Shown here in pieces: positions 3,528 to 63,408 of a stretch of 64,000 bases of DNA (position 1 is the first letter of the stretch; each line of letters begins with the position of its first letter). The position numbers were made by a program, and so were the translations under genes. Under the pieces are notes generated by a model. It was not told the DNA's origin and ran no database searches. It saw only the letters and a list, made by a program, of their open reading frames with translations. The DNA lies in NCBI GenBank assembly GCA_949317995.1, contig OX439043.1, forward strand, positions 62,718,822 to 62,782,821, read 5' to 3'. The DNA comes from Acholoe squamosa (lineage: Eukaryota > Annelida > Polychaeta > Phyllodocida > Polynoidae).

Positions 3528-3671
3528 ATAAGCTCCCAGATATAAGACTCATCTATAACCAACACCATCATCCTGCTCTGTGCCCTCATGCATAGACTGT
3601 AGCACTTTGGATCAGAAGATTGCTGGAGGGTGTTGCTCCTATGGCAAGCGATATGTAACCTCCTCGAGATC

Positions 3672-3910
3672 GGAGTTTTAAACTGTGAGATCAGAGTTTT
3701 AAACTGTGAGATCAGAGTTTTAAACTGTGAGATCAAAGTTTTAAACTGTGAGATCAAAGTTTTAAACTGTGAGATCAAAGTTTTAAACTGTGAGATCAAA
3801 GTTTTAAACTGTGAGATCAGAGTTTTAAACTGTGAGATCAGAGTTTCAAACTGTGAGATCGAAGTTTTAAACTGTGAGATCGAAGTTTTAAACTGTGAGA
3901 TCGAAGTTAC
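3672..3910. repeat. 21-bp minisatellite, about 11-12 copies
   Basis: The unit is roughly GTTTTAAACTGTGAGATCA plus two bases, with slight variation at the base after GATC. Because 21 is a multiple of three, both strands stay open through it (VLNCEIR repeats on +, ISQFKTL on -), which creates spurious ORFs. No flanking domain supports a real protein. Confidence 0.9.
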
Positions 3911-21159: not shown

Positions 21160-24037
21160 TTACATGATGGAACAGGTCTTGCTGCTTTGGTGGGCCATGC
21201 TCATAGCCCCTGCCACGCGTGCCGCTTGAGCCGCTCCTAGCATTTTTCCACGTAGTTTGGTGAGACGAGGTGCATTTTGACCTATAATATGGAATAAGAT
21301 AATATTGAAATAAGTTATGATTACACTCCTCATAGATACCATTTGGATGTTACATAATGTATGATTTGAGATGCAAGAGAAAACTAACAATCACTGACTT
21401 TTTAACTTATGTTCTAACATTTTACAGGTCATATAGATGCACTGTGCCCTTTGCTGTCGTGATGCATGGATGTAGCATATAATTCATCAGGGATGTATTC
21501 ATGCATCATAGCAACATGGCTGATACACACTTAAAAGTTTAATATTATCCACCCATGGGGTGCCAGCGCTAGCACTGCATTGGTGCATAATTTTAAGGAT
21601 TACAGAATTGCTTCAACCTTGAGGCATATGATACTTCCCTTTATAAATGGTAAAAGGTAGTTAAAATAGGTACATACTTTGTGAGAGATCGATACTGGTG
21701 GTCTCCTTGACCAGAGTCGTGGTGTCGTCGATACTCGATATGCGGTCATCCTGAGTCGCGTGCTCCTTGCAGAGCCATAGTATCTTTCCATTGGGCATGT
21801 GGCACTGCGTCAGTCCTCCCATTGAACGTGCTTCGTCTAAGTCTATCATGAACTGGCGGCATTCTTGGTATTCATTTTTGAAGTCTATATCCAAGGAACA
21901 GTTCTATTTTGATAAGAAAGGAATACATCCAATCAGATTTTGAGAACACATTTTCGGCAAATTGAATGCTTTATGCAGTGTCAGATTTAGAGATACTTAC
22001 ATCCCCGTCCTTTTTGTTAGTAGTTTAATTGCATATTTTGCACCCCAAAAATTGCTCAAAGATAGGGGGGGGGGGCATGCCCCCTCCTTTTTCAAATCCT
22101 GGATCTGCCACTATTATGAATTACATCAACCCCAGACTCATCTGGAATCTGGAATGCAACACTGCACTCGCCTAATTCATCATTAGAAATATATCGTTGA
22201 TAAACTGAATGGTAGTTAAAAGTGGACCATACTTACATCTTCCAGCTTCCTGCGTAGCTTGTCACCCTTGTCAGTCGTAAGGCAGGGGCAGTCGATGGAC
22301 GTGTGCTTCAAGATTGCCATCATCCGTGCACCGAATGGAGCGATACGCTCAATGAACTGGTCCATCTCTGGGCCACCTTTATGTGGCACAAGTAGCGGAC
22401 TACCACTTACATGCCAGCCCTGATGATATAGAAAATCATGAACAGCATTATATGTTGGGAAATAACTAAATCAATCTGGAACTCTAGATCGCACTCCTCA
22501 ATGCACACGTCATACTATATGGGAACAAATCTACGTATGCAATAATCGTCATGGTTCCCCACAGTCATTAACCTTTGCCAATATCCTGTATGCTGGCATA
22601 CATATACTAATGATTCTATTGAACTGTTAATTTTATATGTCCTAGCTGCAAAATCAAACATACAGAATTCTTAAATCAAGCATAACAAATTTACAAAATC
22701 GTTTCATTTTGTTAGATACCCACCTGTTCATGCTCACAGAGGATTCTAACAACATAGTGTTCATCATCATTATTGTCTTCCTTCGGTATGAGCGGCTTTC
22801 CCTCAGTATCCTTGTCTTCTTTAGTAGCAAAGTCCATGAAGAAGAGTCTGGGGTACACTATACTTTCAGACAGGTTAGCATACCCACTAACCTGCCGTAA
22901 GAACTTCCTCTGGGCAAGCTCTAATAGTTCCTGTAAGACAAATTATACCTTTAGTGAGCTGTTTATTACACAATTTAAGAACAGTTGCCATCAGCTCCAG
23001 TTAAAAAAGTGATGGAGCACATAAATCCTTTAAATGCTAGATTAGATGCCCAGATATATAGGTTTTATAGAGGAAAGTATAGCTCTTTGGCAGTTGAAAA
23101 TCCATGAAATCAAGGAAAACCCTGAAGACATCCATCCCTGCAGCTCTGACCCTCGCTTGTGTAAATTTTGGTGGCCTCTCCAAGGGCTTTTGTAAATTTT
23201 GTAAAAGGTTTTTTTTTAGGATCTGTGGACGGAGAAGGGTATAAATACCCCCAGCAGGAGGTACATTAGGCCACTTAAAATTGATTATCATCTTTGCGGA
23301 CACTTTTAGAAAAAAAAAAAGGGATGAGGGTTTTATTTTTATTTTTCATAAATTTTCTCAGTGACGAGGGAGGTTAGTTTTTATTTGTCTTAACAATTTT
23401 AGAGATGAGGGAGGCGCTATTTTACAGAGTTACATAGGTCTCGGGTAAAATCCTGGTGAAAAGGAAAATATTTTACTCATACTAAATGATTTTAAAAGTT
23501 TCCAATCAATGGTAGCCACAACTATTGATTTCAGATATGGGATAAGGAATTACTGGGGAATCTAAAGGTGTAAAAATCGACCAAGTAGAACCTTCTGGAT
23601 GGCTTATTATGTTAGGGGCGGAAATCTAACATTTATTTTCACCAAAAATCCTAAGGATGCGAGAATTTGTCATTTTTTTCAAAGATAAAGAAAAAAGGCT
23701 TCATGCGGCCCTTTTTAAAGGGTGCGGGCGGTGTTTGTAAAGCTGATAATCGATTTTAAGTGGCCTTATTCACTACAGTGGCCATATACCATCAAATTCC
23801 AGAGAAGAACTGAGGTAGTGGTCAAGGTGGTAAAAGCTTTGAATTATGATTGAAGAATGCAATGCTGCCTACTTGGAATGCTTGCTGCTGGGCATTATCC
23901 TTGCCTTCGTTCTCGGTCTGCTCCTCTTTCTTTTCCTCTGGGAGCGCCTGTTTGACTGCCTCCACAAGGCGCTCTAGTACAGTGCCGCCCTCATACTGGG
24001 CGTTAATCTTAGGGCTCCCAAGTACCAGCATACCAAC
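21160..24037 (-). CDS. C-terminal conserved region ending in a CaaX-like box
   Basis: Exons 23873-24037, 22724-22930, 22237-22419, 21678-21903 and 21160-21281 encode the last 300 residues. A Lys/Glu-rich linker (PEEKKEEQTENEGKD) leads to a globular part with YPRLFFMDFATKED, VVRILCEHEQGWHVSGSPLL, MDQFIERIAPFGARMMAILK and QCHMPNGKILWLCKEHATQD. From memory, this LCEHExGWH...PNGKxxWLC pattern recurs at the ends of other invertebrate Roco proteins, but I cannot check it here. The tail is basic and Ala/Met-rich (LTKLRGKMLGAAQAARVAGA) and ends SSKTCSIM followed by TAA at 21160-21162. CSIM fits a CaaX prenylation box with Met last, which favours a farnesyl group and membrane attachment. Confidence 0.85.
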
Positions 24038-27000
24038 CTTAAAGGAGGTAAATTATGATATGAACAGCTAATCTACATATGCACACATTGAGAGCAGAGG
24101 GATAAAGAAAGGAAAGTAATCATATCATGTTTAACCAGAGTAGTCAAGATGATCATAAGATTATGGATGTATGAATGAACATTGAAGTTACTGAATGGGA
24201 TCATTTTCCAGAAAGCTAGCATTAGGTCCATTAGTTTAATTTGATGATGTGCTCTTGTTGTACCTCTGATGCCTCCCATGCGTAGCCCTGTCCTACGATG
24301 ACCACGATAATGGGGAGTCGAAGGATACTGGATGCAAAACGTAACTCCATCTGACAGTTCTTGGACTTGGCATACTGTTGTATGACACAAAATAAGTAAT
24401 TTTAGTATTACAGGTAAAGGATTTGTTTAGGTAAATTTGGTAATATTACTAGTGTAGAATAAATGTATCAGTGGCGGATCCAGGGGGGTGGCCCAGGGGG
24501 CCTCCCCCCCCCACCACACAAAAAAAAAGAAAAAAGGAGAGGGAAAAAGGAGAAACAGATGAAAAAAAGAGGGAAAAGAAAAGTGTAGAGGGGGCCCCAA
24601 ACAGGGGGCTTGCAGTGCTCGGGCAACATATAGTACCTCATCAGCTCTCACCAAGTCTTGCCCCCCCCCCCTTCTAGACAATCCTGGATCCACCACTGTG
24701 TATATCATTTTTATTCCCACTTTATTCGTTGATTTATGTTCTCACCTCATCAGAGACACAGGCCACTACGACTTTGGCATGTTTGAGGCCCTCGGCAATA
24801 TCCTCGAAGAGACCACCCTGAAATATAAGCAATTACAAATGTAATAATATATCAAACTGGGAACAATACATCCACATGAATTGCACATAAATTATGTATG
24901 TCTGACAGCTTCTTCTTATTGGTTAACTAAATCATGGAAAATTATAGACTGAGTCAGAGAATGAAAATGAAGCCAGTACATGAATACGCATCTCACCTTT
25001 CTTTTTTTTTTTTAATTCTCAATTACAGAATGGATTCCTACCTGGCCAACTTGTTCAATGTCCATCCAGCAGTCAATACCGTTATCTTCCAGGTGCTTTT
25101 TGAAGCCGCGAGGATCCCCCCAGCCAAGCGCCCCTTCTACTTTCCGTGAACCCTTCTTGATGGCGTCGTGCGAGTTACTCCAGCAGTAACTTAGGAAGCA
25201 CCGCGGGTGCTTAATCTGTTCACATAGATTAATACTGATTATATTGGAGAAATTCTTTATGTGTATACAAAGCAACAGAAAACTTCCTGTGATCACCAGA
25301 TCACCATATTATCAACACTGTACTATAACCGTTCAATGAGTTTAAAAATTGGCATTTTAGATTGCAGGAAAGCCTCTGAAAGGCTATACAAGGTAACCAT
25401 TCTGGTTGTCATTCATAACGACTCAGTTTATGCAGATTAGTATTAGCAGAAACACAGGGCATGAGAACAGCAAGAAAAGAACACTGCACAGCAAATTCAA
25501 ATGGAAAAGCATCAGAATAACTTCATGTGTGGATTTTGATTTGTTTCTACAATACAGTAGCCCGAAGTTGTTGGCAATAGAAAAAAAAAGTTAAATTGAT
25601 GTTAAAAAAGATGTATACTTTCATTTGACTTCCAAACCTGTTTTTTCTTCTCCATAATAACGAGTATTTTTCTTGCCAAGCGCCATTTTGATGTCAGAAT
25701 TTAATTCATTTAATATCAGAGTGTCAGAATTTAATTAATTTAATATCAGAGTGTATACAAACAGGAGAAGCAGGAACAGCGATAAGTAACAGATAATACC
25801 CCTAATTGGAAAAGAGTCAAATATATTGAAATCACTTTTCACCTTATTTATAGGGAGTGACCCTCGTTCCTTTTCGAAGATTAAAGAAGAGGATCTGTGA
25901 CCAGGGTGAAGAAAAGATGGGAAAGGTGACTAAATGTGGTTAACTGAATAACTAGTAACTAGTAAACTGTAAGTTAGAGCATATGAGTTTGACACATTTG
26001 TGGTTAACTTATAATATCGTGTATTTTCACTCAATATAAAGTGGTGCTAATTTGTAAACGATATATGATGCACGCTATAGTTAGCACATTCACACATGTT
26101 GAGTTTAATGCTAGAAGATCAAGTACGTATAATTCCTTATCTATGAAAGAGTGAGAGTTAGTATATCCCAGAGCTTAATCAAACCAAACTTATCTTATTC
26201 TAATACTGAAGTGAAGAAAAAGAAGAACATTCATTATGCCAATGTAATATCACAACTTACCTTTTTCTTGGCTGTTTTTGATGTAATGGACTCCATGAGT
26301 TCAACTTTCTTATGCTGATATCGCTTTGGGTCATTCATCTTGATATAAACCTAAAACATTTAGATGTAGCGCAAAATAAGCTGAGATCTTATTGGCCAAA
26401 ATCCTTCTCTGACACGGGTGGGATTGTAGGATAGCTGTCCAGGACTAGAAAAATCTTGTCAAATATAGGTCACGTAATAGCTATAATCCCACCATACTAG
26501 TAAAGGATTTTAGTACATTTTAGCTAATCCGAACTGGCCGCTAGTAAAAAAATGCAACATGGCATCAAACCAGCGACAAGATTTAAAGTATCAAACAGTT
26601 CATCATCCTCAGTTTAAAGGCCATCTCTTATTCTCATAAACTATCATTTGGTCATAGTGATGCATGCATATAACTCTGTGAGTCTCCTGCCTACTGCCCT
26701 CATACATCATGATAATGCTATGGCACAAGCATTTATAGATACATAATGAAATCAAACAGAATTGTATCATGCAGCTCTAACAGACTTCCTTCACCCTTTA
26801 AATACCGCTGATGCAGGAGTACAGCATGCCAGTAGGTCGTCATGATGCACCAATGAAGTGCTGGCGAGTCGGCTCGCCAACACTTCATTGGAGCACCATG
26901 CCGACCCTCCGAGGGTGTATCAACCCCCATAGGACTGGTATGATGCATGAATCTAGCCCTGGCGAGTAACTCACCAGGGCCACATTCATGCTTCATGACA

Positions 27001-30000
27001 ATCAATGGGTGCATTGATGATCAATGGCTGTGGCATTCAAAGGTTTAGAGGACAACATTAACAGCCTTACCTCAGATGCCATCTGCATACCGATGTCAGT
27101 CTTCTGCCAGTTGTTGCCAGTCAGTACAATCATCTGCATCTTTTTACGTAGTGTGTTTTGCGCATAGTAGAAGACATTGCAGCACTGGTCGTCTTGGACG
27201 AACGAGTCGGATACCATCACCACCACCAGCTGCAATCACACATTTATGTCAAACTTAAGTATTTTATTTTGGAGAATTGTAGTAAATTTCTGTATTTTTC
27301 CTTTCCTATTGTTGCGAATCCTATGTGTTCACTAGTCATTTACATGTTCCAATTAAAACATGAACACAATTATCAAATCATATGAACATTATAATCCTTG
27401 ATATTGATTTATATCAATTATGAAGCGCCATTTGGATTTTTTTAAAATTTTAATTATAGGACCTACACCTTGATAGTAGAAGTGGTAGCACAATAGGCAG
27501 AGTTTGAGTTTAGAGTGATAGCTATCTTTTTACATACCTTGGCATTTTTCATAGTGATTGCTATAGATTTCAAGTCAACGGAATCAGGGTCTTGCGAGAA
27601 CCATCTATAAACGCAGAAACAAAGAAACAGTTATCATGGAACTGCTGACATGCATTCATGATTATATGCTAAAAGGCAAAGTACTGTAAAAAAGCCTACC
27701 GTAATCTCCCGCGTATAAGGCGCAACTTGCGTATAAGGCGCACCTAGAGTTTTGGAAAATTCTCAAAAAATGAAAAATTCATAACTTGAGTTCTACTTAA
27801 TGAATTTTCAAAATTCAAAAACCTATGGGAGCTTGGGCCACCCTGGACCCTCCTGGGCCCCCTTATGTCCTATTATGACCAAGGGGGCATGTAAGATATC
27901 AAATGAAAGGTCTTGGTGTCCCCCTTGTGGATCCAATGAGAACTAAAACCCCCCGTAAAAGACGTGCCTTATACGCGGGAGATTACGGTAATTACAATAC
28001 CATGAATTTATACAGTATTACATTTAACAATGAATCAATATCTACATAATATTTGTCGACACCTACAGGGGTATACCCTGTACGTTTTCCTGGTATTCTG
28101 AATCATTACCGACTGGAGTAAGAGTATTTACAAAGCCATACCTGCCAACAAAAACACTGAGAGCCTCAACGTTTTCTATGATCCAATCCTCTTGTAGGAG
28201 TGATGACAAGAGATCTCATTGGTTCTGAACAAATCACTGATCCAGGCAGATAAATCTTCAGAAAACTGAGTTTGTAGATACGAAATGACCAACTTACACT
28301 TTGTAGCCCTCGTCAGTAAGATCTTGGTAGATTTTGCGGGGTGCCACTTTTTTGTCGTCCTCCCCGATACCCGGTATGTCCTTACCGCAGTAGAAGAGGA
28401 ATACATCAGTCTCCATGTCCGTCTTCAGATCTGACAGGTCCCGCAGGTTCCGTTCCAGGTGCGCATCAAAGTCGGTACTCGAGTCAGGTGGCATGGCCGC
28501 TGTCAAACAAAATGTAGATGTTCTATATCAATATCACTGTCACAAAAAGTACGATTCATTTTGAGTAAATACTCGTTGTCTTTGTATACTGTTTACAGGA
28601 CTAGGACTGTCAATGGCTTATGAAAACTTTCTTTTATAGTTAGGCCACTCCAAAAAAAAAAACACCTTGTTTCTCATCACCAAGTTATGAAAAAATAAAA
28701 AAAAAAACTGACGAGCTGGCTTTTATACTTTTGGCTATTTCTTTTTCTTGTGCCAGACTCATCTGATCACTAGGCTTTGACAAATCTCATCTTTAGGCAT
28801 AGGCATACCTTGGACTTCAGTGAGGGACAGTGTGTGGAAGTACTTGTCACATTGTAAGAACGGTACTTTGAGTTCCACTGCACGGCGAATCTTTGAAGCT
28901 TCAAACATGCAAGGATCATTGGTTCCCTAGAAAAAAAAAGAAAAAGGGGTAAGAGGAGGAAAGAAAAATAGAAAGGAGAAAACCATCAATAATGGTGAAA
29001 GAGTGATAACATTGTATAGGCGATAAATACATGTCATTTTCTTAAAAACATAGGGCACGGGCCTTAGTGGCATGGAATTTCTTCACAATGACTTGGGAGA
29101 GTGCTATGGGGCATGGTGAATACCAACCTACATAGGCATGTGACCTTTTCTTGAATTTTAAAGGGGCAGGACATACATGGGAACCAGAATATGACTTAAT
29201 TCCTTTCCAAAATGGCAAACAAAGAAGAATGATGATAAGTATAAAAACTTTGTTCTTCAACTCCCTCAGGTCCGAATCAGTTGTCCTCTTGAGATGATAA
29301 GTGTCAAAAAAGAGATTGACCAATATACATACCACTTTGACACAGTCTTCACAAGGCACGAGGAAGTCGTAGGTCACCCCGTTGTACGCCTCGGAGATAA
29401 GCGTCTCAAAGACCTCGTGAACAAGGAACAGGAAGTTCTCCGGGCAGTGACCTTGAGCTCTCACCTCCACTTGTGACCCATGCAGCTGCTTCATGAGAGC
29501 GTTATGGGAAGTCTTGTGTAACAGAGAACCTTTCTTCCAAATGATGGAACTGTCGGAGAACTGGGACAACCGGACCTGGTAGGTGTGAATATTAATCCCA
29601 GTTACTTATAGATTTATCTAAGTTACTTGCAAATAAGAGGAAAAACACAATAACATAGGGTTGCATTTTCCTATAAAGAACCAGCACTTGGTGCTTATAT
29701 AAGACTTACCGTAATCTCCCGCGTATAAGGCGCGTCTTATACGCGAATCAGATCGTGACTGGGTCTTATACGCGGGAGGGTAATTGCCTTGAGTTGGGGG
29801 TGCGCCTTATACGCGGGCTGCGCCTTCTACGCGAGAGATTACGGTACGTTTAATATAAAATTAATCGATACTTACATGTAAGTTGATGATTAATTGTTGT
29901 TCCAGGAGCAACGATAGATCGTTGCGGGGTACATAGGAGATGCGCATGCGCAGATCCGTAGATGTCAGACGTCCGCTGGCAGTGAATCAATCGCTGAAAG

Positions 30001-54000: not shown

Positions 54001-57000
54001 GTTAAACAAGTATGAAAACTGGAGAAAGATCAGGGAGCAAACTCCATTCTCAATGGTCACCGCCTTACTCTACCATTTTGTCTTCTGGCTAAGATTCTTT
54101 GCCGCTTTATTTTCATGTTGTTACCACACCATTCCTTTACCTTTTTCTTAAAAATGTCTTTGTTTTCAGCTCTTTGAACAGTGGCGAGGAGCTTGTTCCA
54201 ATATGGCCGAGGCTGCTTCTTATAGGATTATATTAGAGAGATGTAAGTCAAGAGTGTGTGAAAGTTCTGAAGATAATCATAGAAGTTATGAATCTTCAGG
54301 AATAGGAAGTAAATTAGGGGAATCTCGAACTGGGGAAATTCTGAGAACTTACCGGGGTGAAAAGGGTGTGATGGACTGGTGGATCTCCAACCTCTTTAAG
54401 GTACTTCTCCCACGTAAAGTGCGATCTATAACCTGTATCAATGAATGGGGTTATTCCTAAATCTTATCTACGTGGCTAACTGTATGATCTGTGGTATATA
54501 ATGGGCAAATGAGTTAAATCTGTGACTATCTTTTTTAAGGTGCAGTAATTACCACATAACTACCTGTAGGAGTATCAGTAGCTGATAGAATATTTGGTCT
54601 AAAGGAGTGGTCATTATTTATCAACGGGGGGTGGTGGGTTTGCACGCGAACACACGAAAACTTTTTACACCCCCCCTCGACGGCAGTCAAAATTTGTCGT
54701 GCCCCTGCCGAGAATTTTCTCACCCCTCTTTGATCTATAGTAGTGTGCAGGCCTTTTTGCTAAAAAGAGGGTAAATCTTTTTAGCCCCCCCCTCAAGAGG
54801 GGTCAAATTTTTTTTTTAGCCCCTCCCCCCCTCGGGAGGGGTCTGAATCATTTATGCACCCCCCCCCCTTTTGTTAAATAATGACCACTCCCTAATGTCT
54901 AACATAGCCAACAAGATCACTTCATGTATAAAGGCGACCACTGATGGCCCCCATTCGATCAGCCAATTGTGACGATTCCGCTTATAAATCTCAGATCAAT
55001 CTTACAGAATCAAACAAGTTGGTATAATTAAATTGATTCTGTTCATTATTCATGGGTTTAAGACACACATAAATTACGATATATTACCAAACTTACTTTT
55101 TGGGGGCTCCAGTTTTGCACCTGGTTTGTAGGTGGACTGTAAATGAGCGATGTAGCCGATAGGGTGAAGGTCAGGGCTGGTGACGTCTGCGATGTAGTCA
55201 TATCTATCGGTCCAACCGTCAAAGTGGATGTTCACCTGCGTCCCCTCATTTAGCACGGACGCTGTTTGATAGATATGGTAATGTGGTACATTAACTTAAT
55301 ATGGGACACACAGTTTAGCTGAGACACACACATCAGTGTCCCCACCATTCATGGGTCATGGTTTTAACTGACTTTTACCTGATATTTATCAACTTTTAAC
55401 TGACCAGATTTTGGATTTTATGGGGCTCACGAAAGATTCATCCAATCTCGAGGGAGGGTGTTTAAGAAATTTTGCAAATTCCGCATGCCATCTTGACAAT
55501 CATAAGTCTAGATTAGTCAAAATACCATATTTAACTGGCTTAATATCTTTTTATCAGAGCTTTAAAGTAAAACAGCTTTAAATGACTTTTAAATGACCAG
55601 TGGGAACCCTGTACATACACGTTCCCAACCAAAGCCTTGCTCCTCCATCTAGACGGAAGTGCAGTTACAAGGATTTTGACTTAAACTGGCAAAAATCAAC
55701 TCCCAGCTGTGCCTGTTAGGATTACATTCAATTTTTATGTGTCCTATTCGCAGGCTTCAGGTACAGCGAGGTTTTGGGTGGTACAGTTGGCGCCCTACCT
55801 GAGAGGGGTGGTCAGTGTTCTACCACAGTTTTCTATATCATAAGTCCTATTCAGTTATATTGAAAATGACTTAAAAGAACAAATTTGTTACTACTGTGTG
55901 TGGGGGATATACCTGCATATATAGTTTGGCTTATAGTTATACGCAAGGAAAATAGTTTTCCCTGGATCAACAAGGGGACAACAAGACCTTTTATTTGATG
56001 TGCTGGTATTACGCTTCCCCCTAACCGATATACAGCACAATAGACGTTTCAAAAGGGTCCTAGCTAAATGGCTTTTTGAATTTTGAAAATTCATTGAGTA
56101 GTACAATACTAGTTATGATTTTTTTCGAGGCCAAAGCACAAACTCTCGATGTGCCTTATACATGGGATGTGTTTTTAAACTTTTATACAGGAGGTTTTAT
56201 GTTTAATATTTTCAGGGGTTTTTGTTGTTGATTTTTCTAGCATAAAATATTTTATTTCTAGAATTTTCCCCCCATATGTCTTTTGGAGTTTAAAATCCTT
56301 GTTCGAACCAAGATGTATCCAAGGTGTGTACAAATGATATACCTTTTTCTTCAGTTACTAATAGTTACTAAATGTATACTTACTGACGGTTGCAACGCAG
56401 ATCAAATTGGGATTCAATCTGTCCTTTGCCTCTAACCGCATGCCTTCTTTCCAGTCTATTTCCATTCTAGATTTCTGGAAGAATAATTCCAGGCAATGAG
56501 GAAAATTGAAATGGGGAGAGCAAAGACAAGTTTGAAAATAATTCAAGCTAATTCAATGTAATAAAAAGACCTGACTTAGTTAACTGTGGGAAAACTCTAA
56601 AGAAAATGTATGGCGATCCCAGCGCGTATGTATTCCTATAGGGCTTAGTATGGACTCCCAGTGGGTCCTCCATTTTGAATTTCGCTGGTTGAGGTTAAAG
56701 TCACTGATAAGACATACCGACGTACGATGATAGGTCCCTGGTCCCTGGGTGACACCCACTTCCAGGGGCAAGCTGGTCCCATCTTATCAGTTCTTATCTG
56801 TTCATGTCGCCAGAAACCAGCTCCAATCCCGCTTAGACACAATACCAATTTATCCGCCGGGACCCAGGGTCACACCTGTGACTCTTTTGGAGTTTTAAAA
56901 TGTCATCTCAAATGAATGTTTATGTGGCTTGTTACTTACAAAGGCAGTCGGTGCATTTAGGAAGAAGGTCATCTGCAGGCTGGAGAAAGCCATAAAGACT

Positions 57001-60000
57001 ATGTTGTCTCCCGGTCTGTAACCTATGCCGGTATCAATAGCCCAGAGTACTTCATCCGCCATGCTGAACTCTATGAAATAACACAGATCCTGGAAACAAG
57101 CAAAAAGAGAATAATATTGTAGAGGTCGGCGAAAACGTACTTGGAAACACCGGGTTTCGAACCTGGGACCTCTCAACTTGCAAACGAGCGCTCTACCACT
57201 GAGCTACATCCCCAGACCTGACGTTCTCTACCTTCCACCTACATCTGGATCGGTATGACACAAGGGGGCAGTGTTCACTGGCTGACCAGCCCATGGGGGC
57301 TGGTGCAACCGGAATGGGGACAGATAGCATACCGTCATGGACTCACAGCCAGAGCTGGCCCCTACAATATATTTAATAAAAACTTTTCTCTATCCTTGTC
57401 TTTCTTGATCATACTGCTGCAATGGTTGATACATACCGTATTCATTCTTATAATAAGCGCACCGGTGCAGAAAATAGATTGTCAGATGCTCAAAACCTTA
57501 ATACAGAGCTGTACGAAAATTCTAATATGCGCACCCCGTACCCATCCCTCAGCGGTTCTGACGTAGGTTTACTGTAATAAAATCCCTTTATTTGCATAAC
57601 TTGACACCCCATATGGCCACATTTCAAATTAGCACAAGTCTCACAGTAGCACAGCTGCACAGGTTATATTTATGATTAAAATATATATAAGGCCATGTGC
57701 TACGTATTTTATGTTAGACAGCAAAGAGTTTTCCTCACCGGTTTTAGAGTTTCTCCGTCTTTGTTTCCTTTTGCCTGTAAAGAGAACAAATTTCGGTTTA
57801 TTAAGTATAATTTCTTGTTCTTGCCCCCACAAGAACAGTCTTACAGGCACAAAATTATTCTTGCGCCCGCAAAAACATTTTTGTATCCTCAAAAATAATC
57901 TTTCCTGTGAGATTTCAGAATGGCATAACTTCGGTTATAATCAATGGATCTTAAGAAGAACGGCCGCAAGAATACTTTTGCGGGACCAACAATATTTTTC
58001 AGAGAAAGAAATCATTTGTAAATGTCCTCTCTAGGGCTCCGTAGAAATGTGCTAATAATTCCAAAGGTAAGTGATTACGTTTTGGTCTGTAGCTTTTTCT
58101 TAAGGCAAAATGTGGAAAATTTCTTAATTTACTCTCACTACTAACTTTTTGAATTGCTCTTACCGTCTCTTTGATGAAAATCCGAACATCAATTGTGTTT
58201 CCATTTTCTAACACTCTTGGCATTTTTTTGACCTCGTCATTCCCTTGTATGAAAACTGTTTCTCCACCCTTTGATTTCGTTTGTAGCGTGTAAGTGTGCT
58301 TCTTGCTATCTTTAGTCAGTCTGGTCAAACAGAATGGGTAATGTTAAAGTAAATTTCTTTTAAAAAGTGTTTTTCTTTAGACTATTACCGTTATGAGGTA
58401 AGCTACTATCAACAGAAAGATCACTGAGACTTGTCCTGGTCTACAACAGACCCACGTGGCAAGAAAGGGTGACTTTTTCGGAATAAAATTGTATTTAGGT
58501 TAGGTTTAATGGAATCCTCATAACATTGCTTGAAGTATCCACATATATGCAAAGAGGGTATATCATCAAATTCACGAGACAATTATCTTTCAAATGATAC
58601 GCATCATATGGTATACATGCCAATGAATATTTGCATTCTTATTAAGTCGACCACAGAAATGTTCAAAATCTTTAGCTCTAGGACGACCATATTTGCTTGT
58701 CTGGGTGTATGATGGAACGTGATTAGCCCATAGCACTTTGTATTGCCTCTGGTTTCTGCGCTGGCTTGAATTCATCCATCGCTCGCTAAAAGCAATGTTG
58801 CTGGTTATAAACTGTTACATGATACACCAATCAAGTGCTGATGAGTCCTCACTGTCAGATTATCTTTGCTGCATCACATCGATCCTTGGGGAGAGTGTCG
58901 ACCCCATTGGGTCTATACGGAACTGGAGCTGGTTTGTGGCGACACACACTGACAAGAGCTGATAAGATGGGAATCAGCTTGTTCCAGGAAGTTAGTGTTA
59001 TCCAGGGACAAGGTACCCATCATGACATATCTTATCAGTGTGTTTTCCCACTTTCAGCAGAATCAGCAAAATTCAAAATGTTGAACCCAATGGGTATGGG
59101 TCCAGACTCCTATACGATGAGCAAGATGGACTAATGCACTTTAAAGGGTTAACCAGCTATGCAATGAGTATATAAGAATAATGCACTTTAAAGGGTTAAC
59201 CAGCTAAGCAATGAGTATATAAGAATAATGCCCTTTAAAGGGTTAACCAGCTAAGCAATGAGTATATAAGAACAAGGGGTCAATGGTTAGGAGATTATGT
59301 TAAGGATTCAATTGAAAATTTAGGATCTAAGATCTATGATCAAGAGGCCCGTGTTAAGGATGCACTTGAGAGGATTCAATTTAGGATCTGTCATCTATGA
59401 TCAAGATATTAGGATTTCATATTTAAATTTGACGATCAATTCTGAGTTTAATATCAATTCTAAAAGCAGGTAAATTGCAGTGAGTTTCCCGGATTAGAAA
59501 TTTATCCCATATTTTCAGCAAAGTAAACACAGCAAAGCTGTAATGCCATGCATATTCATATCATGTTCTAAGAAGTATAGAATTGATTTACAACATTTTT
59601 AATATGATCTTAGATCAAAATTTTCAGAACAAATATTATTTTAATACAGAATCTAAAAGCCCTTCATATGTTGTGTGTTTTGCAATTTATTAATCTATAA
59701 CATACTTTCAGGAAAGTAAACACAGCAATGCTGTAATTCCGTGCATATTCCTATTATGATCCAAGGAAAAAAGATCATTATATATGAACTCTATGGCCTT
59801 TGGAATGGACCTATACTTAAATATATGCTCTGATTGTGGTGCTTCCTCGCTCTCCATGTAAAATCCTGTCCCATTGCTATAGTATGGAGTAAACCTATGC
59901 CTGTATTAAAATATGCAAATAAGGAATTGTGTGTGAGGGTTGGGAGTAGTGTGGTGGTGGTATTGGTGGTGGTGGTGTCACAATGGTCACTAACATCCAT

Positions 60001-63000
60001 CTGATAACTTTTGAAGATCAAAATTGACCATATATGGCCTGGATCCCTGTGATTCCTGAAACCAAGATGGCCAACACACAAGGAAAACAAAAGAATTAGG
60101 TAGTTGAGGTGTCCCAATGGTCACTAACATCCATCTGATAACTTTTGAAGATCAAAATTGACCACATATGACCTGGATCCTTGTGTTTCCGAAAACCAAG
60201 ATGGCCGACACACATGGAAAACAATAAAATTAGGCACTTGAGGTGTCCCAATGGTCACTAACATCCATCTGATAACTTTTGAAGATCGAAGTTGACCATA
60301 TATGACCTGGATCCTTGTGTTTCCTTAAACAAAGATGGCCGACACATATGGAGAACAATAGAATTAGGTAGTTGAGGTCTTTCAATGGTCACTAACATCC
60401 ATCTGATAACATTTGAAGATCAGAATTGACCACATATGAGCTGGATCCCTGTGTTTCCTAAAACCAAGATGGCCGACACACAAGGAAAACAATAGAATTA
60501 GGTAGTTGAGGTGTCCCAATGGTCACTAACATCCATCTGATATCTTTTGAAGATCAAAACTGACCACATATGGCCTGGATCCCTGTGATTCCTAAAACAA
60601 AGATGGCCGACATATATGGAGAACAATATAATTAGCTAGTTGAGGTGTCCCAATGGTCACTAACATCCATCTGATAACTTTTGAAGATTAAAATTGACAA
60701 TATATGAGCTGGATCCCTGTGTTTCCTAAAACCAAGATGGCCGACACACATGGCAAACAATAAAATTGGGTAGTTGAGGTGTCCCAATGGTCACTAACAT
60801 CCATCTGATAACTTTTTAAGTTCAAAATTGACCATATATGGCCTGGATCCCTGTGTTTCCGAAAACCAAGATGGCTGACACACATGGAAAACGGTCCCAA
60901 GACTCCAAATAATCTAATGCCACGCCACTTAAAACTCCTAAAAAAGTGCATCATACTTATGTGTACATGTATACATAAATATACATGTAGGTGGCCTTTA
61001 GTGGGTTAATAGTCAGTGGTGCTGAGAAACACACCACCAGCAGAAGAGAACCACATGGTGCTGGGGGAGGTGGTGCCAGGCAGGTATGGGGCCACCCCAG
61101 GAGCACAGCCACCAGCACCATTCAGAGGTGGGTGGGGGGGGGGGGCTATATATACTATATACCATGGCTCTGCCTGATGTGTCCAGGGCTACCACCACTC
61201 TGTCCCCAGGGTCTACAATAACAGGTCCACCAACACCACCACTGCCACCACTTCTATGCTTGACTGATTTGCAAATTTTAATCCAGGTATAGGCATACTC
61301 AATACTGTACCTATGAGACAGGATTATACATGGAGAGCGAGGAAGCACCACTATGAGAGCTTGTATTTAAGAATGGGTCCCCTCCTATAGCCGTTCATTC
61401 CTAAGAATGAACGGCAATAATGCACTTTAAAGGGTAAACCAGCTAAGCAATGAGTATATAAGAATAATGCACTTTAAAGGGTTAACCAGCTAAGCAATGA
61501 GTATATAAGAATTAGACTTACTCCACCCCGATGCCAGGTGTGTGCCCAGCGTCTATGACGATAGTGAATTTAGAGAAGGCTTCTGGCCTCATAGATGTCT
61601 TCCATTTGACCATAACAGGATCATCCGTAGCCTTCATGAGCGGAGGGATCGTAAACCAGCTGCCTTTTTGTTGAACAGCGCCTGCTCCTATCTTCTGCCA
61701 CGTTTTACCACACAGAGTGGGATACACGTCACAGTAGTTTTCCTGGAATGAAAGCGTGATGCAATTGATATATGGAGTTTATAAAGACTCTTGTTTAAGG
61801 TCCATGCCCCCCCCTTGATATAAATGATGAGATAAGGTCTCATCGAATCACAAGATTGACTCAGATCAATCTTCACAACAACAAAAATAAGGAAAAAAAG
61901 AACAGTAAACTGAGGAGTTTGCAGGTATGCTTAAAGGATCAAGGAGCTGCTGCATCTTTCTAAGTTGGTAAAATGGTTTCTAGATAATAAATCTAAGGAA
62001 TTTAACCACATCTACAATCAGAATTGTTTTTTCCCCCCAACCCAACTGTTACTACAAGAGGAAGCTTCCAATTTCTATTTGCAGATAATCACACTGTGTA
62101 CTCCTTCTTCGTAGTTTGATAAAAGCAAAGCTAACTTTATCAGACTTATCTCCTGCCCTAGATAAGATACCTCTGAAGGTGAAATAGAAACAGTCATACA
62201 CACTTTGTGGCCAATTAGTACCTACCCAGAGTTGTTTTAGGTGTTTGGGATTTCCGCCACATTCTGAGCAGCTCACTGAACCTGTAGAGCTGCTCCCTAC
62301 TCCCTCCTTTATCAATTTCAGTGAGTGGTTGTTTGCAAAGCGCATATTATCACCTGAAGTTTAAGTTTGGTTATTATTTGCATTTGAATTCAAGTTTTCA
62401 TTCTATGGGAGCACTTCAATAAATGCAAAATTAACTGAGCTAACCATAAAAGAATAAATGATCTTCAGGTTTGCACAAACTCCAAAGTTGGTCTGTCATA
62501 TCGGGTAGTACAAAGATCATGGAAAATTTGTTAAATATATGTATAAAATGTAATTGTGCACAAGTATAAAAGGTGACAATGTGGTTTTGGTTTCCCCAAC
62601 ACCGAGGTAGCGGATTGTTCAATGGGGGCGACCATCGCTTAAGCTGGTTACCGGCAGGTATCACTGACAACAGCTATCATATGGGTACCACCTGTCCCCC
62701 TAGAGGCCTGCAGTGAATAGTTTGGGTTATTTCAATGGGTGATAATTAATTCCACTAAGCCATTATATATTATTTTATGATGGGTAGGTCGAGCTTTTCC
62801 CCATTTTCCCTACACTTGTGGTATTCCCTTTTTACCATCTACATGAAGGATCATTAATGCATGACACCTTCACATCAACAAAGGAGGAAAAGACTTGTGT
62901 CTGAGTTCCTACCTATGGACGTTCCATCTGGCATGTTCTTTTGTTCACACTGTATGGGAAAATGAAAGTTCAAATTAAGCAAGCAACATAAACAATTATT

Positions 63001-63105
63001 AACTTAAATCTTTTTTTCTCTTAAAATCTGACCTTTGAATACTAAAGATATTGGAAAATGGACCTTTATACATTTATGTCGGGGATGGAATGAAGACAGG
63101 CACAC

Positions 63106-63185
<80 letters not shown>

Positions 63186-63408
63186 AAGTTCGGCCATTCT
63201 TGACTATATTAACACACCTTGAACGTTAGGCTGTCCCCATATGAGTATGAGATGTTCCATTTCTTAAATGTGTATTCCAGTAGTACTCTGTAGCATGCCA
63301 CCATCTCTTGAAGTAGCGTAATCAGCTTGCCACTGTTCTTGGGGTCAATGCCTTCAGTGATTATCGATGCGTCTAGAGTAACCTTTGTTATACCATGTCC
63401 AGTGTTGC
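21160..63408 (-). CDS. LRR-ROC-COR-TIR-TIR (Roco) protein with upstream MBT region, 5' partial
   Basis: Exons in transcript order: 63218-63408, 62913-62949, 62226-62353, 61522-61742, 58164-58320, 56940-57089, 56384-56474, 55097-55261, 51226-51334, 46835-47017, 45843-45955, 45621-45683, 44365-44460, 43820-44124, 42720-43122, 42135-42264, 41568-41780, 41237-41402, 40620-40797, 39966-40202, 39565-39671, 39147-39246, 38199-38345, 37654-37818, 37129-37227, 29333-29575, 28809-28926, 28298-28499, 27538-27604, 27071-27229, 26261-26350, 25042-25215, 24746-24817, 24264-24374, 23873-24037, 22724-22930, 22237-22419, 21678-21903, 21160-21281. Visible length is about 2030 residues. Every junction keeps frame except 55097 to 51334 (phase 1 into phase 0), so a small exon is missing there or two genes abut. 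ROC-COR proteins are dimeric GTPase switches. With LRRs to sense and TIRs to signal, an innate-immune or cell-death role is the natural inference. The first exon starts mid-codon, so the true start lies right of 63408. Confidence 0.85.
23269..23765. mobile_element. 497-bp MITE, GGCCACTTAAAAT ends
   Basis: Inverted ends start GGCCACTTAAAATTGATTAT and are flanked by TTA on both sides (23266-23268 and 23766-23768). A partial relative with AAAATCGATAATCAGC and GGACAGCGCCCGCACC lies at 63686-63740. It is in the intron between the linker exon 23873-24037 and exon 22724-22930. Confidence 0.78.
24264..26350 (-). CDS. second TIR domain (TIR2) with linker exon
   Basis: Exon 26261-26350 is a charged linker (NDPKRYQHKKVELMESITSK). 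Exons 25042-25215, 24746-24817 and 24264-24374 encode the TIR at visible residues about 1612-1730: HPRCFLSYCWSNSHDAIKKG, then DPRGFKKHLEDNGIDCWMDI, the Gly-rich turn QVGQGGLFEDIAEGL, HAKVVVACVSDEYAKSKNCQ, MELRFASSI and LPIIVVIVGQGYAW. It keeps the NCxxE motif, whose Glu is the catalytic residue of SARM1, plant and bacterial TIR NADases. Enzymatic activity is an inference. Confidence 0.88.
27071..28499 (-). CDS. first TIR domain (TIR1)
   Basis: Exons 28298-28499, 27538-27604 and 27071-27229 encode visible residues about 1439-1581. The beta-A strand is TDVFLFYCGKDIPG. The BB-loop side is DLTDEGYKVWFSQDPDSVD, followed by SIAITMKNAKLVVVMVSDSF and QMIVLTGNNW. The usual SxxCxxE region reads QDDQCCNVFYYA, with Phe where enzymatic TIRs have Glu. 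It therefore probably serves in assembly rather than NAD cleavage. It follows the COR domain directly. Confidence 0.85.
27697..27990. mobile_element. TACCGTAA MITE, copy 1
   Basis: Ends are TACCGTAATCTCCCGCGTAT and its reverse complement, with terminal TA probably the target duplication. CGTATAAGGCGCA-type motifs repeat just inside. Closely matched in the interior by 50653-50930. Confidence 0.88.
28809..39671 (-). CDS. COR domain of the Roco protein
   Basis: Exons 39565-39671, 39147-39246, 38199-38345, 37654-37818, 37129-37227, 29333-29575 and 28809-28926 encode visible residues about 1113-1438. COR landmarks are LHDLGSLQHFE, VVINPQWIVNVMSCVVSVHE, WLLRLTEEFDLTFPL, YKFEYLPAGLFNRAQVRLSQ and the closing PCEDCVKV, then VPFLQCDKYFHTLSLTEV. 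COR dimerises and couples GTP state to output. The join 37129/29575 spans a 7.5-kb intron filled with inverted-repeat elements yet continues exactly in frame. Confidence 0.92.
29707..29846. mobile_element. TACCGTAA MITE, copy 2 (short)
   Basis: Same ends as copy 1 but only 140 bp long, built almost wholly of CTTATACGCG and inverted copies. It stops seven bases before the 29854 inverted-repeat element. Confidence 0.85.
29854..30271. mobile_element. 418-bp element with perfect 84-bp inverted arms
   Basis: Arms 29854-29937 and 30188-30271 are exact reverse complements over 84 bp. The inner part of each arm (from TTCCAGGAGCAACGATAG at 29900, mirrored to 30225) resembles the end of the adjacent 6.8-kb element. 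The outer 46 bp (TATAAAATTAATCGATAC, then a CTTACATGTAAG palindrome) is therefore an inverted duplicate flanking a 326-bp core. Non-coding. Confidence 0.88.
30272..37087. mobile_element. 6.8-kb ORF-less TIR element with hairpin-array interior
   Basis: Terminal inverted repeats 30272-30314 and 37045-37087 are identical over 43 bp (starting TTCCAGAGCGCAACGATAG). No transposase-like frame is present; the longest frames are short and shadow the repeats. The interior holds a degenerate higher-order repeat of about 0.8-1.1 kb, and almost every segment is a short inverted repeat. It fills the intron between COR exons 37129-37227 and 29333-29575. It is probably a non-autonomous DNA transposon or foldback element; the superfamily is unassigned and no clear target duplication is visible. 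Confidence 0.82.
32050..35870. repeat. degenerate higher-order repeat inside the 6.8-kb element
   Basis: A block beginning GTTGTGCCAGNGGGCCACAA and containing CTCTGGTGGTGTCAAGGTCA and CAGGTCTGGACAGTTAC occurs near 32071, 32648, 32795, 33720, 34526 and 35656. Four of these are preceded by about 110 bp starting TTAGACACCNTTCT (near 32535, 33610, 34410 and 35548). Between them, GGCATAAGGTATAGGTA segments recur. Confidence 0.8.
37397..37542. mobile_element. GGGATGAAAGT MITE, copy 1
   Basis: The ends CAGGGATGAAAGT and CCATCCCT are imperfect inverted copies, with CCTGAAATCAGGGAA near the right end. Related to 38904-39046 and to half copies at 23090-23145 and 44205-44250. Confidence 0.6.
38904..39046. 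mobile_element. GGGATGAAAGT MITE, copy 2
   Basis: Inverted ends CAGGGATGAAAGTC and GACTTTCATCCCTG with CCCTGAAATCAGGGAATTCC inside. It sits in an intron of the COR region. Confidence 0.75.
39966..41402 (-). CDS. ROC GTPase domain of the Roco protein
   Basis: Exons 41237-41402, 40620-40797 and 39966-40202 encode visible residues about 919-1112. G1 (P-loop) is LMMVGLGGAGKTS, G3 is SVWDFAGQTVYYNTHQ, and the G4 equivalent is VLVIGTHVDQV, where Roco proteins have THxD instead of NKxD. YLLMWNVRLGHEHAGLEFWL lies between them. All nucleotide-binding motifs look intact, so the domain should bind and hydrolyse GTP. The P-loop GKT ends an exon, and its following Ser is completed by the next one. Confidence 0.93.
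41461..41500. repeat. short hairpin, AGGGAGTGGT ends
   Basis: AGGGAGTGGT and ACCACTCCCT enclose 20 bp. The terminal sequence matches the 45148 and 54606 family and may be an internally deleted copy. Confidence 0.6.
41568..44124 (-). CDS. leucine-rich repeats of the Roco protein
   Basis: Exons 43820-44124, 42720-43122, 42135-42264 and 41568-41780 encode visible residues about 569-918. Clear LxxLxLxxNxIxxLPxxL repeats include SELNLVKNHITELPADLF, RSLLLSENKIEELPSF, LVTLDVSKNKLKALPNDLL, LEMLSIGHNNIPEIPECV, LTKLYLNDLGVSAIHDDL, LKCLDLSGHSLTEIPKVLG and, after an insert, LEVLDLSHCPSLHTISSDLV. The LV|TLDVS repeat is split by a phase-2 intron, as is common in LRR genes. In this family the LRRs recognise ligands or partners and may hold the GTPase inactive. 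A non-LRR stretch (exon 42135-42264, KASLFDGTEGSQQSTLDHKG) sits between the main block and the last repeats. Confidence 0.9.
44365..51334 (-). CDS. helical region before the LRRs, unrecognised
   Basis: Exons 51226-51334, 46835-47017, 45843-45955, 45621-45683 and 44365-44460 encode about 188 residues with a helix-like pattern (VHHMMRKMGESIPAHLANKV, SVHFLCHNNGLLHMLDHEG, KIWPVTLTVNVVLTSQE, LSAYIKQQLVLTAIPLMFR). The repeated helices and the CHNNGLLHML turn resemble armadillo/HEAT-type scaffolds, which precede LRRs in some Roco proteins. I cannot name a family. The first exon ends phase 1 and joins 46835-47017 well. The first exon's 5' phase does not match the MBT exon. Confidence 0.65.
45029..45425. 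mobile_element. CCCAGTGGGTCC repeat with nested AGTGGTCATT MITE
   Basis: The outer repeat (CAGTGGGTCCACAATACTGA, AATTTCGCTGGTTGAGG, later ACACCCACTTCCAGGAACA) has relatives at 56640-56880 and 58890-59120. The outer copy is split at 45148-45369 by a separate element with ends AGTGGTCATTTTTTAACA and its complement, whose interior is G/C-run rich. That nested family also occurs at 54606-54889. Confidence 0.75.
47490..47832. repeat. 31-bp minisatellite, about 11 copies
   Basis: The unit is CAGCACACAGATTGTAACCA plus ATCTGACACTG. Each unit contains an AGATTG-TAAC-CAATCT hairpin. The copies are contiguous without spacers. Minus-strand frames across it are repeat artefacts. Confidence 0.9.
48650..48877. 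mobile_element. TACCGTAA MITE, copy 3
   Basis: Ends TACCGTAAACTCCCGCGTAT and complement, with AAGACGCACC-type internal repeats. The A and T differences in the two ends (AAACT and AGTTT) are compensatory, so the ends still pair. Confidence 0.85.
49132..50020. mobile_element. AACGTT-rich element, ACTTGGCAAAAAACG ends
   Basis: Ends ACTTGGCAAAAAACG and TTTTTTTTTGCCAAGT are inverted. The interior is full of AACGTTTTTAA-type palindromes plus an unrelated patch at 49800-49900. Non-coding; related to 14185-14640. Confidence 0.7.
50653..50930. mobile_element. TACCGTAA MITE, copy 4
   Basis: Near-identical in layout and interior to copy 1 (shared GCTTGGGCCACCC and ACCAAGGGGGCATGTAAGAT). It starts at the TA that ends the 2.7-kb foldback element. 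Confidence 0.88.
51463..51604. mobile_element. 148-bp MITE family, copy 2
   Basis: Ends CAGAGATGCCAC and GTGGCACCTCTG. Clear relative of 16818-16965, lying just upstream of the 51226-51334 exon of the Roco gene. Confidence 0.8.
52265..52295 (-). ncRNA. possible hammerhead ribozyme core remnant
   Basis: On the minus strand CTGATGA is followed by GACACTAAGTTT and GAAAC, the spacing and order of the hammerhead catalytic core with a weak stem II. Penelope-like elements are known to carry hammerhead motifs. The partner strand with the cleavage site was not identified. Confidence 0.35.
52795..53922 (-). pseudogene. Penelope-type RT C-terminus and GIY-YIG endonuclease
   Basis: The frame is open from the truncation point to TAA at 52795. 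It starts in RT motif C (RFIDDIFIIW, the Penelope-type DD) and continues LDIKVLVSNEGYLETTLYCK, PTDSHNYLLYSSEHPRHVLK and IPYSQFLRVRRICS. The GIY-YIG region reads LIYAITCKYCNIQYVGQTER and LLERFNRHMGDI, with an upstream Cys/His cluster THPCKRPNGCNYCPK. The RT fingers and palm N-terminus are missing, so the copy is inactive. No frame breaks are visible in the remaining 375 codons, suggesting a fairly recent insertion. Confidence 0.9.
54606..54889. mobile_element. AGTGGTCATT MITE, copy 2
   Basis: Ends AGTGGTCATTATTTATCAAC and its near complement GTTAAATAATGACCACT. The interior consists of long G or C runs and AGTCAAAATTT-type repeats, as in 45148-45369. Confidence 0.8.
55097..56474 (-). CDS. MBT repeat (two exons of the same gene)
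   Basis: Exons 56384-56474 and 55097-55261 join in frame to give about 85 residues (visible 295-380). The sequence begins MEIDWKEGMRLEAKDRLNP, continues LICVATVTSVLNEGTQVNIH, then FDGWTDRYDYIADVTSPDLH and PIGYIAHLQ. This matches the MBT layout: GMRLEAxDxxxPxxxCVATV, HFDGWxxxYDYxxxxxSPDxHPxG. Canonical MBT repeats bind mono- and dimethyl-lysine through an aromatic cage plus an Asp, and are usually nuclear chromatin readers. Only one repeat is present, where two to four are usual. Coupling to a Roco/TIR protein would be unusual and depends on the unresolved junction with exon 51226-51334. Confidence 0.8.
56640..56880. repeat. CCCAGTGGGTCC repeat, copy 2
   Basis: Contains CCCAGTGGGTCCTCCATTTT, AATTTCGCTGGTTGAGGTTA, ACACCCACTTCCAGGGGCAA and GTCGCCAGAAACCAGCTCC. 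The 58890-59120 copy is in opposite orientation. Confidence 0.7.
56940..63408 (-). CDS. N-terminal part of the Roco/MBT gene: unrecognised domains
   Basis: The first six visible exons encode about 294 residues that I do not recognise. Residues 1-120 include LITLLQEMVACYRVLLEYTF and a cysteine group (CSECGG, later YCDVYPTLCG) that might bind a metal. Residues 120-294 look beta-rich, with GSWFTIPPLMKATDDPVMVK, SKFTIVIDAGHTPGIGVEL, VFIQGNDEVKKMP and SLQMTFFLNAPTAF. Frame continues cleanly into the MBT exons, so they are probably one protein with MBT. A carbohydrate-binding or immunoglobulin-like fold is only a guess. Confidence 0.6.
57142..57213 (-). tRNA. tRNA-Ala(TGC)-like sequence, degenerate
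   Basis: The minus strand begins GGGGATGTAGCTCAGTGGTA (intact A box), has an anticodon loop TTTGCAA giving TGC, and a B box GGTTCGAAACC, ending with a T-rich 3' acceptor strand and A. The acceptor stem needs several G-T pairs and the anticodon stem has one mismatch. A pseudogene or tRNA-derived SINE head is therefore as likely as a working gene. It lies in an intron just 5' of exon 56940-57089. Confidence 0.65.
58890..59120. repeat. CCCAGTGGGTCC repeat, copy 3 (inverted)
   Basis: Contains CCCCATTGGGTCTATACGGA, GGAGCTGGTTTGTGGCGACA and AACCCAATGGGTATGGGTCC. It ends beside the 47-bp tandem array. Confidence 0.65.
59133..59275. repeat. 47-bp tandem array, left part (3 units)
   Basis: The unit is AATGCACTTTAAAGGGTTAA plus CCAGCTAAGCAATGAGTATATAAG-type sequence, starting at 59133, 59180 and 59227. 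The same unit continues at 61419 and 61466. Confidence 0.9.
59785..61375. mobile_element. inverted-repeat element with satellite interior
   Basis: The left arm (about 59810-59985) and right arm (about 61215-61375) share GTGGTGCTTCCTCGCTCTCC, ATGTAAAATCCTGTC and further GGTGGTGGT-rich sequence in inverted order. Between them lie seven 134-bp satellite units and a G/C-run segment. Non-coding; outer limits are uncertain. Confidence 0.72.
59985..60900. repeat. 134-bp satellite, seven units
   Basis: GGTCACTAACATCCATCTGA recurs at 59985, 60119, 60253, 60387, 60521, 60655 and 60789, an exact 134-bp spacing each time. Each unit also carries ACCAAGATGGCCGACACACA or a close variant. Confidence 0.95.
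61390..61415. repeat. perfect 11-bp stem hairpin
   Basis: GCCGTTCATTC, loop CTAA, GAATGAACGGC. It lies at the edge between the inverted-repeat element and the resumed 47-bp array. Confidence 0.85.
61419..61512. repeat. 47-bp tandem array, right part (2 units)
   Basis: Units start at 61419 and 61466 in the same orientation and period as 59133-59275. The array ends immediately before the exon 61522-61742 splice donor region. Confidence 0.9.
63106..63182. repeat. (TA)n microsatellite
   Basis: About 38 TA dinucleotides, in the intron just 3' of the first visible Roco-gene exon. Confidence 0.95.

Follow-up and report, generated by a model that had tools for sequence, protein, structure and literature searches.

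The combination of leucine-rich repeats (LRRs), a ROC GTPase domain, a COR domain and TIR domains is already known from Aplysia, sea anemones, Trichoplax and bacteria, according to the available text of the papers that describe it. In Aplysia californica, the product of LOC101848126 contains ROC and COR, with an Mbt repeat as accessory domain, and the gene is counted as a putative Toll-like receptor (TLR) by a rule based on LRR and TIR domains; its likeness to the gene reported here is one of description, as given in the accessible part of the paper, where its TIR count, C-terminal end and mechanism go unmentioned (PMC9334734). The ROC-COR proteins of Trichoplax have MBT, LRR and TIR among their associated domains, in a figure whose legend does not state co-occurrence per protein (PMC4104024 Fig. 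1). Actiniarian Novel Gene 1 combines LRR, Miro/Roc, COR at a low threshold and TIR_2, with no MBT reported in the text available (PMC5094078), and a TPR-ROCO-TIR protein is mentioned for a red alga in the available part of another paper (PMC11378527). As far as the accessible text goes, an immune role of TIR-bearing Roco proteins is inferred in these papers (PMC9334734, PMC5094078, PMC8195603), and our literature search, at the level of partial texts, found no mechanism study of animal LRR-ROC-COR-TIR genes. An initial annotation had presented the locus analyzed here as a new kind of Roco gene when set against LRRK, MFHAS1 and DAPK1; with such TIR-bearing proteins in print, this claim of novelty does not stand. 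Here we describe the locus in the polychaete Acholoe squamosa, using a window of 64,000 nucleotides (positions 62718822-62782821 of contig C9, OX439043.1).

Gene model and the LRR-ROC-COR core

The minus-strand open frames of the window were listed, a purpose-written splice-aware gene finder was applied, and the exons were curated by comparison with paralogs. Together with Pfam, this identified a multi-exon gene on the minus strand running from 63408 to 21160 of the window. The curated model has 35 exons and 1842 amino acids within the window, with a single stop at its end, and retains a doubtful 10-base exon (42019-42010). On the spliced protein, LRR, ROC, COR-A, COR-B, TIR1, TIR2, a C-terminal region and a terminal CSIM-stop follow one another, each family scoring above its own Pfam cut-off (MBT 22, LRR_8 27, Roc 27, COR-A 35.3, COR-B 27 and TIR_2 28 bits), which bears out the domain order of LRR, ROC, COR and two TIRs given in the initial annotation. 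In a hint-free run whose codon usage had been trained solely on hand-picked exons from two paralogs, the gene finder scored 280 on the strand of the gene (35 exons, 1851 amino acids), 15.7 on the opposite strand and 1.1 to 7.7 on five first-order Markov controls. Since the gene finder returns one open frame every time, this score indicates coding content and not unity, and the open frame was dropped as proof of a gene.

Upstream, the gene probably extends beyond the window. Further likely exons were found at 71.2-66.1 kb in window numbering, together with a possible first exon at 86806-86682 that starts MKKAKAKKSK, and whole-gene models reach about 2200 to 2800 amino acids; the upstream stretch tested against Pfam gave nothing over cut-off. 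Elsewhere in the window, the plus strand carries a reverse transcriptase piece (61-612, RVT_1 67.8 bits), with similar-looking frames to about 1524, and a DUF229 exon (8404-9333, 237.9 bits). Minisatellites with units of 134, 31 and 21 bases lie at 59974-60892, 47471-47831 and 3666-3908, and repeat units of 47 bases at 59132-59272 resemble those at 61416-61512.

The LRRs (41568..44150, minus strand like all features of the gene; exons 44150-43820, 43122-42720, 41780-41568) gave 72.0 bits with LRR_8 in three stretches of the curated protein. The ROC GTPase domain (39966..41402; exons 41402-41237, 40797-40620, 40202-39966) scored 78.1 bits with Roc PF08477 at residues 773-893. In the window model it contains GLGGAGKT at 778, DFAGQ at 833 and THVD at 890, which we take to be its GTP-binding motifs. 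These nucleotide-binding motifs are intact, with small changes in the paralogs, in an alignment whose fourth row is about 30 residues short. COR-A (37654..39671; exons 39671-39565, 39246-39147, 38345-38199, 37818-37654) scored 104.5 bits with PF16095 at residues 948-1091, and its introns are common to the paralogs. COR-B and the linker behind it (28809..37227; exons 37227-37129, 29575-29333, 28926-28809) include a 7.5-kb intron; COR-B scored 90.4 bits with PF25497 at residues 1111-1248, and the same two COR-B exons are joined directly in the paralog on contig C2. A first hinted model (53 exons, 2258 amino acids) was dropped in part because the paralogs contradict several of its short exons between COR-A and COR-B; judged against the paralogs, its exons 37411-37385, 36996-29876, 37863-37819 and 53541-53305 were false or doubtful. 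These corrections are supported by the COR-A and COR-B scores, which had been 72.7 and 56.5 bits in that model.

By Pfam, COR follows ROC directly and in order, as in Roco proteins, and about 300 to 370 residues of ROC-COR could be aligned with PDB entries (best E 1.3e-35 for the bacterial Roco entry 4wnr and 2.1e-27 for LRRK2). No NACHT or NB-ARC ATPase was matched by Pfam at E 0.001 in the curated protein, and STAND-type traces were found below cut-off only (NNH2 at 13.9 bits in the N-terminal part and nSTAND_NTPase5 at 16.8 bits in a paralog). By hydropathy in the window model, no membrane span of the kind that a Toll-like receptor has between LRR and TIR was seen, since the six top 19-residue windows (1.38 to 1.73) all lie within the TIR2 core and nothing outside it exceeds 1.38.

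To find copies, we searched the 63 contigs of a 1.48-Gb genome. A ROC-COR query gave 25 matches, with related loci at C2:77.74M, C6:5.78M and C6:73.40M. In all three paralogs, tblastn placed LRR, ROC, COR-A, COR-B, linker, TIR1 and TIR2 in identical order and on one strand each, the LRRs being seen by Pfam as well in two of them. Some of these matches are weak alone: at C6:73.4M, E is 0.001 to 0.23 for the LRR and 0.017 for a portion of TIR1, and the TIR2 fragment, which is without the first half of the domain, scores 26.1 bits, below 28. With agreement defined as the same phase within one residue, and with unaligned or low-local-identity junctions set aside, intron position and phase are common to the paralogs at 47 of the 60 testable junctions (16/20, 15/21 and 16/19 by paralog, of 26 in the core model). 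The junction from LRR to ROC agrees in two of three paralogs, the third being not testable; that from COR-B to the linker agrees in all three, linker to TIR1 in two, TIR1 to TIR2 in one, and TIR2 to the C-terminal region (24374/24037) again in all three. No paralog shares junction 22419/21903 or the junction into the CSIM exon. The paralog order and the shared introns argue for unity from LRR to TIR2, so LRR, ROC, COR and C-terminal TIR domains are found in one predicted gene, as in the animal LRR-ROC-COR-TIR group. The stretch from LRR to CSIM had been called well supported in the initial annotation; its part up to TIR2 holds by the shared introns, and its last two junctions lack that backing.

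The same comparison makes it highly improbable that the locus is a pseudogene or an assembly mosaic. Such an origin would fit the repeats and transposon fragments found within and beside the introns, but all domains stay open across their exons, and introns as well as motifs match the paralogs; the lack of stops counts for less here, being partly by construction of the model. Between the LRRs of the C2:77.74M paralog, an EF-hand-like loop was noticed by eye at about C2:77740323-77740644 on the plus strand, with no Pfam match to an EF-hand at E 0.01. A similar feature occurs in Aplysia LOC101845043, which combines LRR, ROC, COR and TIR with an EF-hand and for which the accessible text mentions no MBT (PMC9334734).

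An uneven pair of TIR domains and a CaaX-like end

TIR1 (26261..28499; exons 28499-28298, 27604-27538, 27229-27071, 26350-26261) and TIR2 (24264..25215; exons 25215-25042, 24817-24746, 24374-24264) together gave 75.6 bits with TIR_2 in two stretches of the curated protein, and 35.2 and 50.6 bits alone (cut-off 28). Against PF01582, an older TIR model, the scores were 19.7 and 20.8 bits, just below 21.3. A glutamate of TIR2, E1515 (within ...NC-M-E...), is invariant in the window gene and the three paralogs. V1359 of TIR1 occupies the same column, which in TIR1 reads V, L and L in the three of four genes aligned; seven of the eight TIR sequences entered this alignment, TIR1 of C6:5.8M being left out because it is incomplete in its model. 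By eye, the tblastn segment and alignment row of that TIR1 are likewise without the glutamate. Rows 2 to 4 of the second paralog alignment were stitched from separate tblastn matches.

E1515 aligns with a glutamate of Cat1, a CRISPR-associated TIR protein (E 2e-5 with a profile, 0.0071 with a single sequence), and beyond this alignment we take its position to be that of the catalytic NADase glutamate. A tryptophan often precedes the catalytic TIR glutamate, and TIR2 has none before its own. SARM1 was not among the PDB matches of TIR2, and the PDB search with TIR1 gave nothing relevant. According to the available text of one study, SARM1, like every prokaryotic TIR NADase examined, requires the putative catalytic glutamate, TIR-TIR self-association is generally needed, and the TIRs of TLR4 and MyD88 have no NADase activity (PMC7282519). 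E1515 stands at the likely NADase position. Since the glutamate is kept in TIR2 and missing in TIR1, TIR2 may be enzymatic, and TIR1 is unlikely to be an enzyme of that kind.

A possible alternative, which we do not favor, is that the protein is an adaptor-type scaffold in which both TIRs only dock TLRs and MyD88-like adaptors, without enzyme activity, and the GTPase controls assembly; this reading is compatible with the other alternatives considered here. It draws on the lack of NADase activity in TLR4 and MyD88, on the PDB search with the TIR2 profile, whose animal matches are all MyD88 chains and fall short of significance (E 0.03 to 0.05), and on the at least 121 TIR_2 matches in the genome (150 of 167 candidates scored), by which partners would exist. 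Against it, the TIR2 glutamate is invariant in four of four genes, at a position where MyD88 holds a glutamine.

The C-terminal region (21678..24037; exons 24037-23873, 22930-22724, 22419-22237, 21903-21678) carries LCEH...GWH and WLCKEH motifs and gave neither a Pfam match over cut-off nor a PDB match at E 1 or lower. It is common to both C6 paralogs; since the window sequence and the two C6 copies went into the profiles of this region, those profiles match C6 by construction. In the C2 paralog, no C-terminal exons were found in the 22 kb after TIR2. Short extra copies of the exon end ...KGDEGTAFKEFLVK lie after the GWH exon in the C6:5.8M paralog (C6:5.8049-5.8057M).

The last exon (21160..21281) ends in ...SSKTCSIM-stop, a CaaX-type motif in the predicted gene model, and has a coding score of +9.8 with paralog codons. 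The gene finder, which is blind to CaaX, picked this exon in 15 of 15 terminal-exon runs, and the CSIM end also appears in the first hinted model, the run with penalty -9 and other extended models; other settings end the gene earlier, at 21661 (penalty -13) or 22216 (first strict run). In the C6:5.8M paralog, a CIIL end was chosen in nine of 15 runs, which are all nine with that exon in the allowed stretch. For the C6:73.4M paralog, a long open frame at the expected place ends in CVLQ, and this end was chosen in none of 15 runs though in reach. CaaX-like ends also arise by chance, since seven of 1001 open frames of at least 20 amino acids in the four downstream flanks end in this way, one or two per flank. 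Coding scores are 3.2, 10.6 and 5.0 for the three frames considered here, against -3.4 to -7.6 for the other four CaaX-like frames. A predicted CaaX end is thus supported in two of three genes (CSIM and CIIL), CVLQ being a lead, and the CaaX-like end noted in the initial annotation is retained. Our literature search on CaaX or prenylation of TIR or Roco proteins found no paper describing such an end, judged by title or the start of the abstract. Prenylated immune sensors do exist, as the reference list of PMC9334734 includes one for dsRNA.

The MBT domain and its likely attachment

The N-terminal exons within the window (56940..63408; 63408-63218, 61742-61522, 58320-58164, 57774-57739, 57089-56940) have gene-finder splice scores of 2.1 to 7.2 at nine of ten sites, the donor of 57089-56940 reaching only 0.1. 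Besides MBT, no Pfam domain over cut-off was found in the N-terminal part, and no second copy of the N-terminal and MBT region was found in the genome, MBT cores apart. The MBT domain (54353..56474; core exons 56474-56384 and 55261-55097, MBT-arm-like exon 54432-54353) scored 71.8 bits with PF02820 at residues 263-338 of the curated protein, and phmmer against PDB matched L3MBTL1, with 79.2 bits (i-Evalue 2.5e-21) for the best single stretch. In the PDB alignment, D269, N272, F295, W298 and Y302 match L3MBTL1 residues at positions that presumably form the MBT methyl-lysine cage. D355 of L3MBTL1 is described as a cage residue in the available text of PMC4589357. The MBT domain, only suspected in the initial annotation, is real.

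The genome has 15 MBT matches at five places, the window gene and four clusters of two to five, and these four clusters resemble ordinary MBT genes. A Roc-type GTPase match lies 16 kb downstream of a four-MBT cluster on the same strand (C1:50087733-50088080 and 50104111-50107123, minus) and may be an unrelated small GTPase.

Attachment of the MBT domain had been called less certain in the initial annotation. In the interval between MBT and LRR (44316..54352), the candidate exons 51334-51226, 47017-46835, 45955-45843 and 44460-44316 come from the gene finder only and are poorly supported. The interval also holds a transposon-like open frame of 378 amino acids (52798-53931, minus strand; GIY-YIG 23.8 bits, cut-off 22.6), which we take to be probably a piece of a Penelope-like element. 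The splicing model may therefore have merged two neighboring genes, an upstream one for an MBT protein and a downstream one for LRR-ROC-COR-TIR-TIR, a reading to which the roughly 10 kb with this frame between MBT and LRR would lend itself. MBT joined with LRR beats the best of 14 splits by only 3.9 score units, and no MBT was found in about 27, 16 and 28 kb before the first LRR match of the paralogs. The hint-free model omits the MBT exons too, which says little, since it also omits one exon of TIR2 and three of ROC/COR. On the other side, a TIR_2/GTPase with MBT is reported for Trichoplax in the accessible text of PMC5094078, and the strongest reason to join MBT with LRR is Aplysia LOC101848126. 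The available part of PMC9334734 has this single annotated gene in a set chosen for LRR and TIR domains and gives Mbt, ROC and COR for it. On balance we regard two separate genes as unlikely, and attachment of the MBT domain to the gene that spans LRR to TIR2 as likely.

A possible GTPase-switched receptor and its relatives

Taken together, the sequence features point, with a probability of about one half in our estimate, to a large cytosolic Roco protein that would serve as a membrane-tethered receptor, switched by its GTPase, with the TIR pair signaling once clustered. The LRRs and the N-terminal region would sense a ligand, and the ROC-COR cycle would alter the dimer state and bring TIR pairs together. 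TIR1, without the glutamate, might be a docking partner, and TIR2, with the glutamate kept, would either hydrolyze NAD+ or recruit adaptors. Prenylation of the CaaX cysteine would hold the protein on a membrane, and the MBT domain would bind a partner protein at a mono- or dimethylated lysine. A bolder version, which we consider quite improbable, is a family of lipid-anchored Roco-TIR receptors with at least two prenylation signals, in which the GTPase switch would drive an NAD+-cleaving TIR together with a dead TIR, and one member would have acquired a methyl-lysine reader as its link to chromatin or to methylated partners. The NLR-like immune receptor suggested in the initial annotation is a reasonable reading of the predicted gene. 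The receptor proposed here could be probed at clear points, namely the glutamate of TIR2, the cysteine of the CaaX box, the P-loop and the cage of the MBT domain.

Compared with its architecture, the inequality of its two TIRs and its CaaX end are the more interesting features of this gene; in the accessible literature on this kind of protein, we found no description of a glutamate confined to TIR2 or of a CaaX-type end. By sequence, ROC-COR is alignable with LRRK1, LRRK2 and bacterial Roco entries of PDB, and to our knowledge LRRK1 and LRRK2 have no TIR domains. Among placozoan proteins, those called ecTIR-DC 14 II, one of the ecTIR-DC classes that reportedly originate from Gerdol and others 2017, come near the predicted whole gene in length. 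They are given as 3000 amino acids with LRR and TIR, Roc being unmentioned in the available text, and they may equal the Trichoplax ROC-COR proteins (PMC6321704). Our scan of bacterial contigs for relatives gave 128 pattern matches, none of them confirmed. Published bacterial AP-GTPases accompany COR, according to the text available (PMC7159879), and the bacterial counter-invader proteins have N-terminal LRRs, a Roc-type AP-GTPase and COR, with TIR among at least 24 C-terminal domains and with MBT and CaaX unmentioned in the accessible part of the paper (PMC8195603). If the proposed receptor is correct, animals would switch TIR signaling by an LRRK2-like GTPase as well as by STAND ATPases, in parallel to the bacterial LRR-GTPase-COR-TIR proteins.
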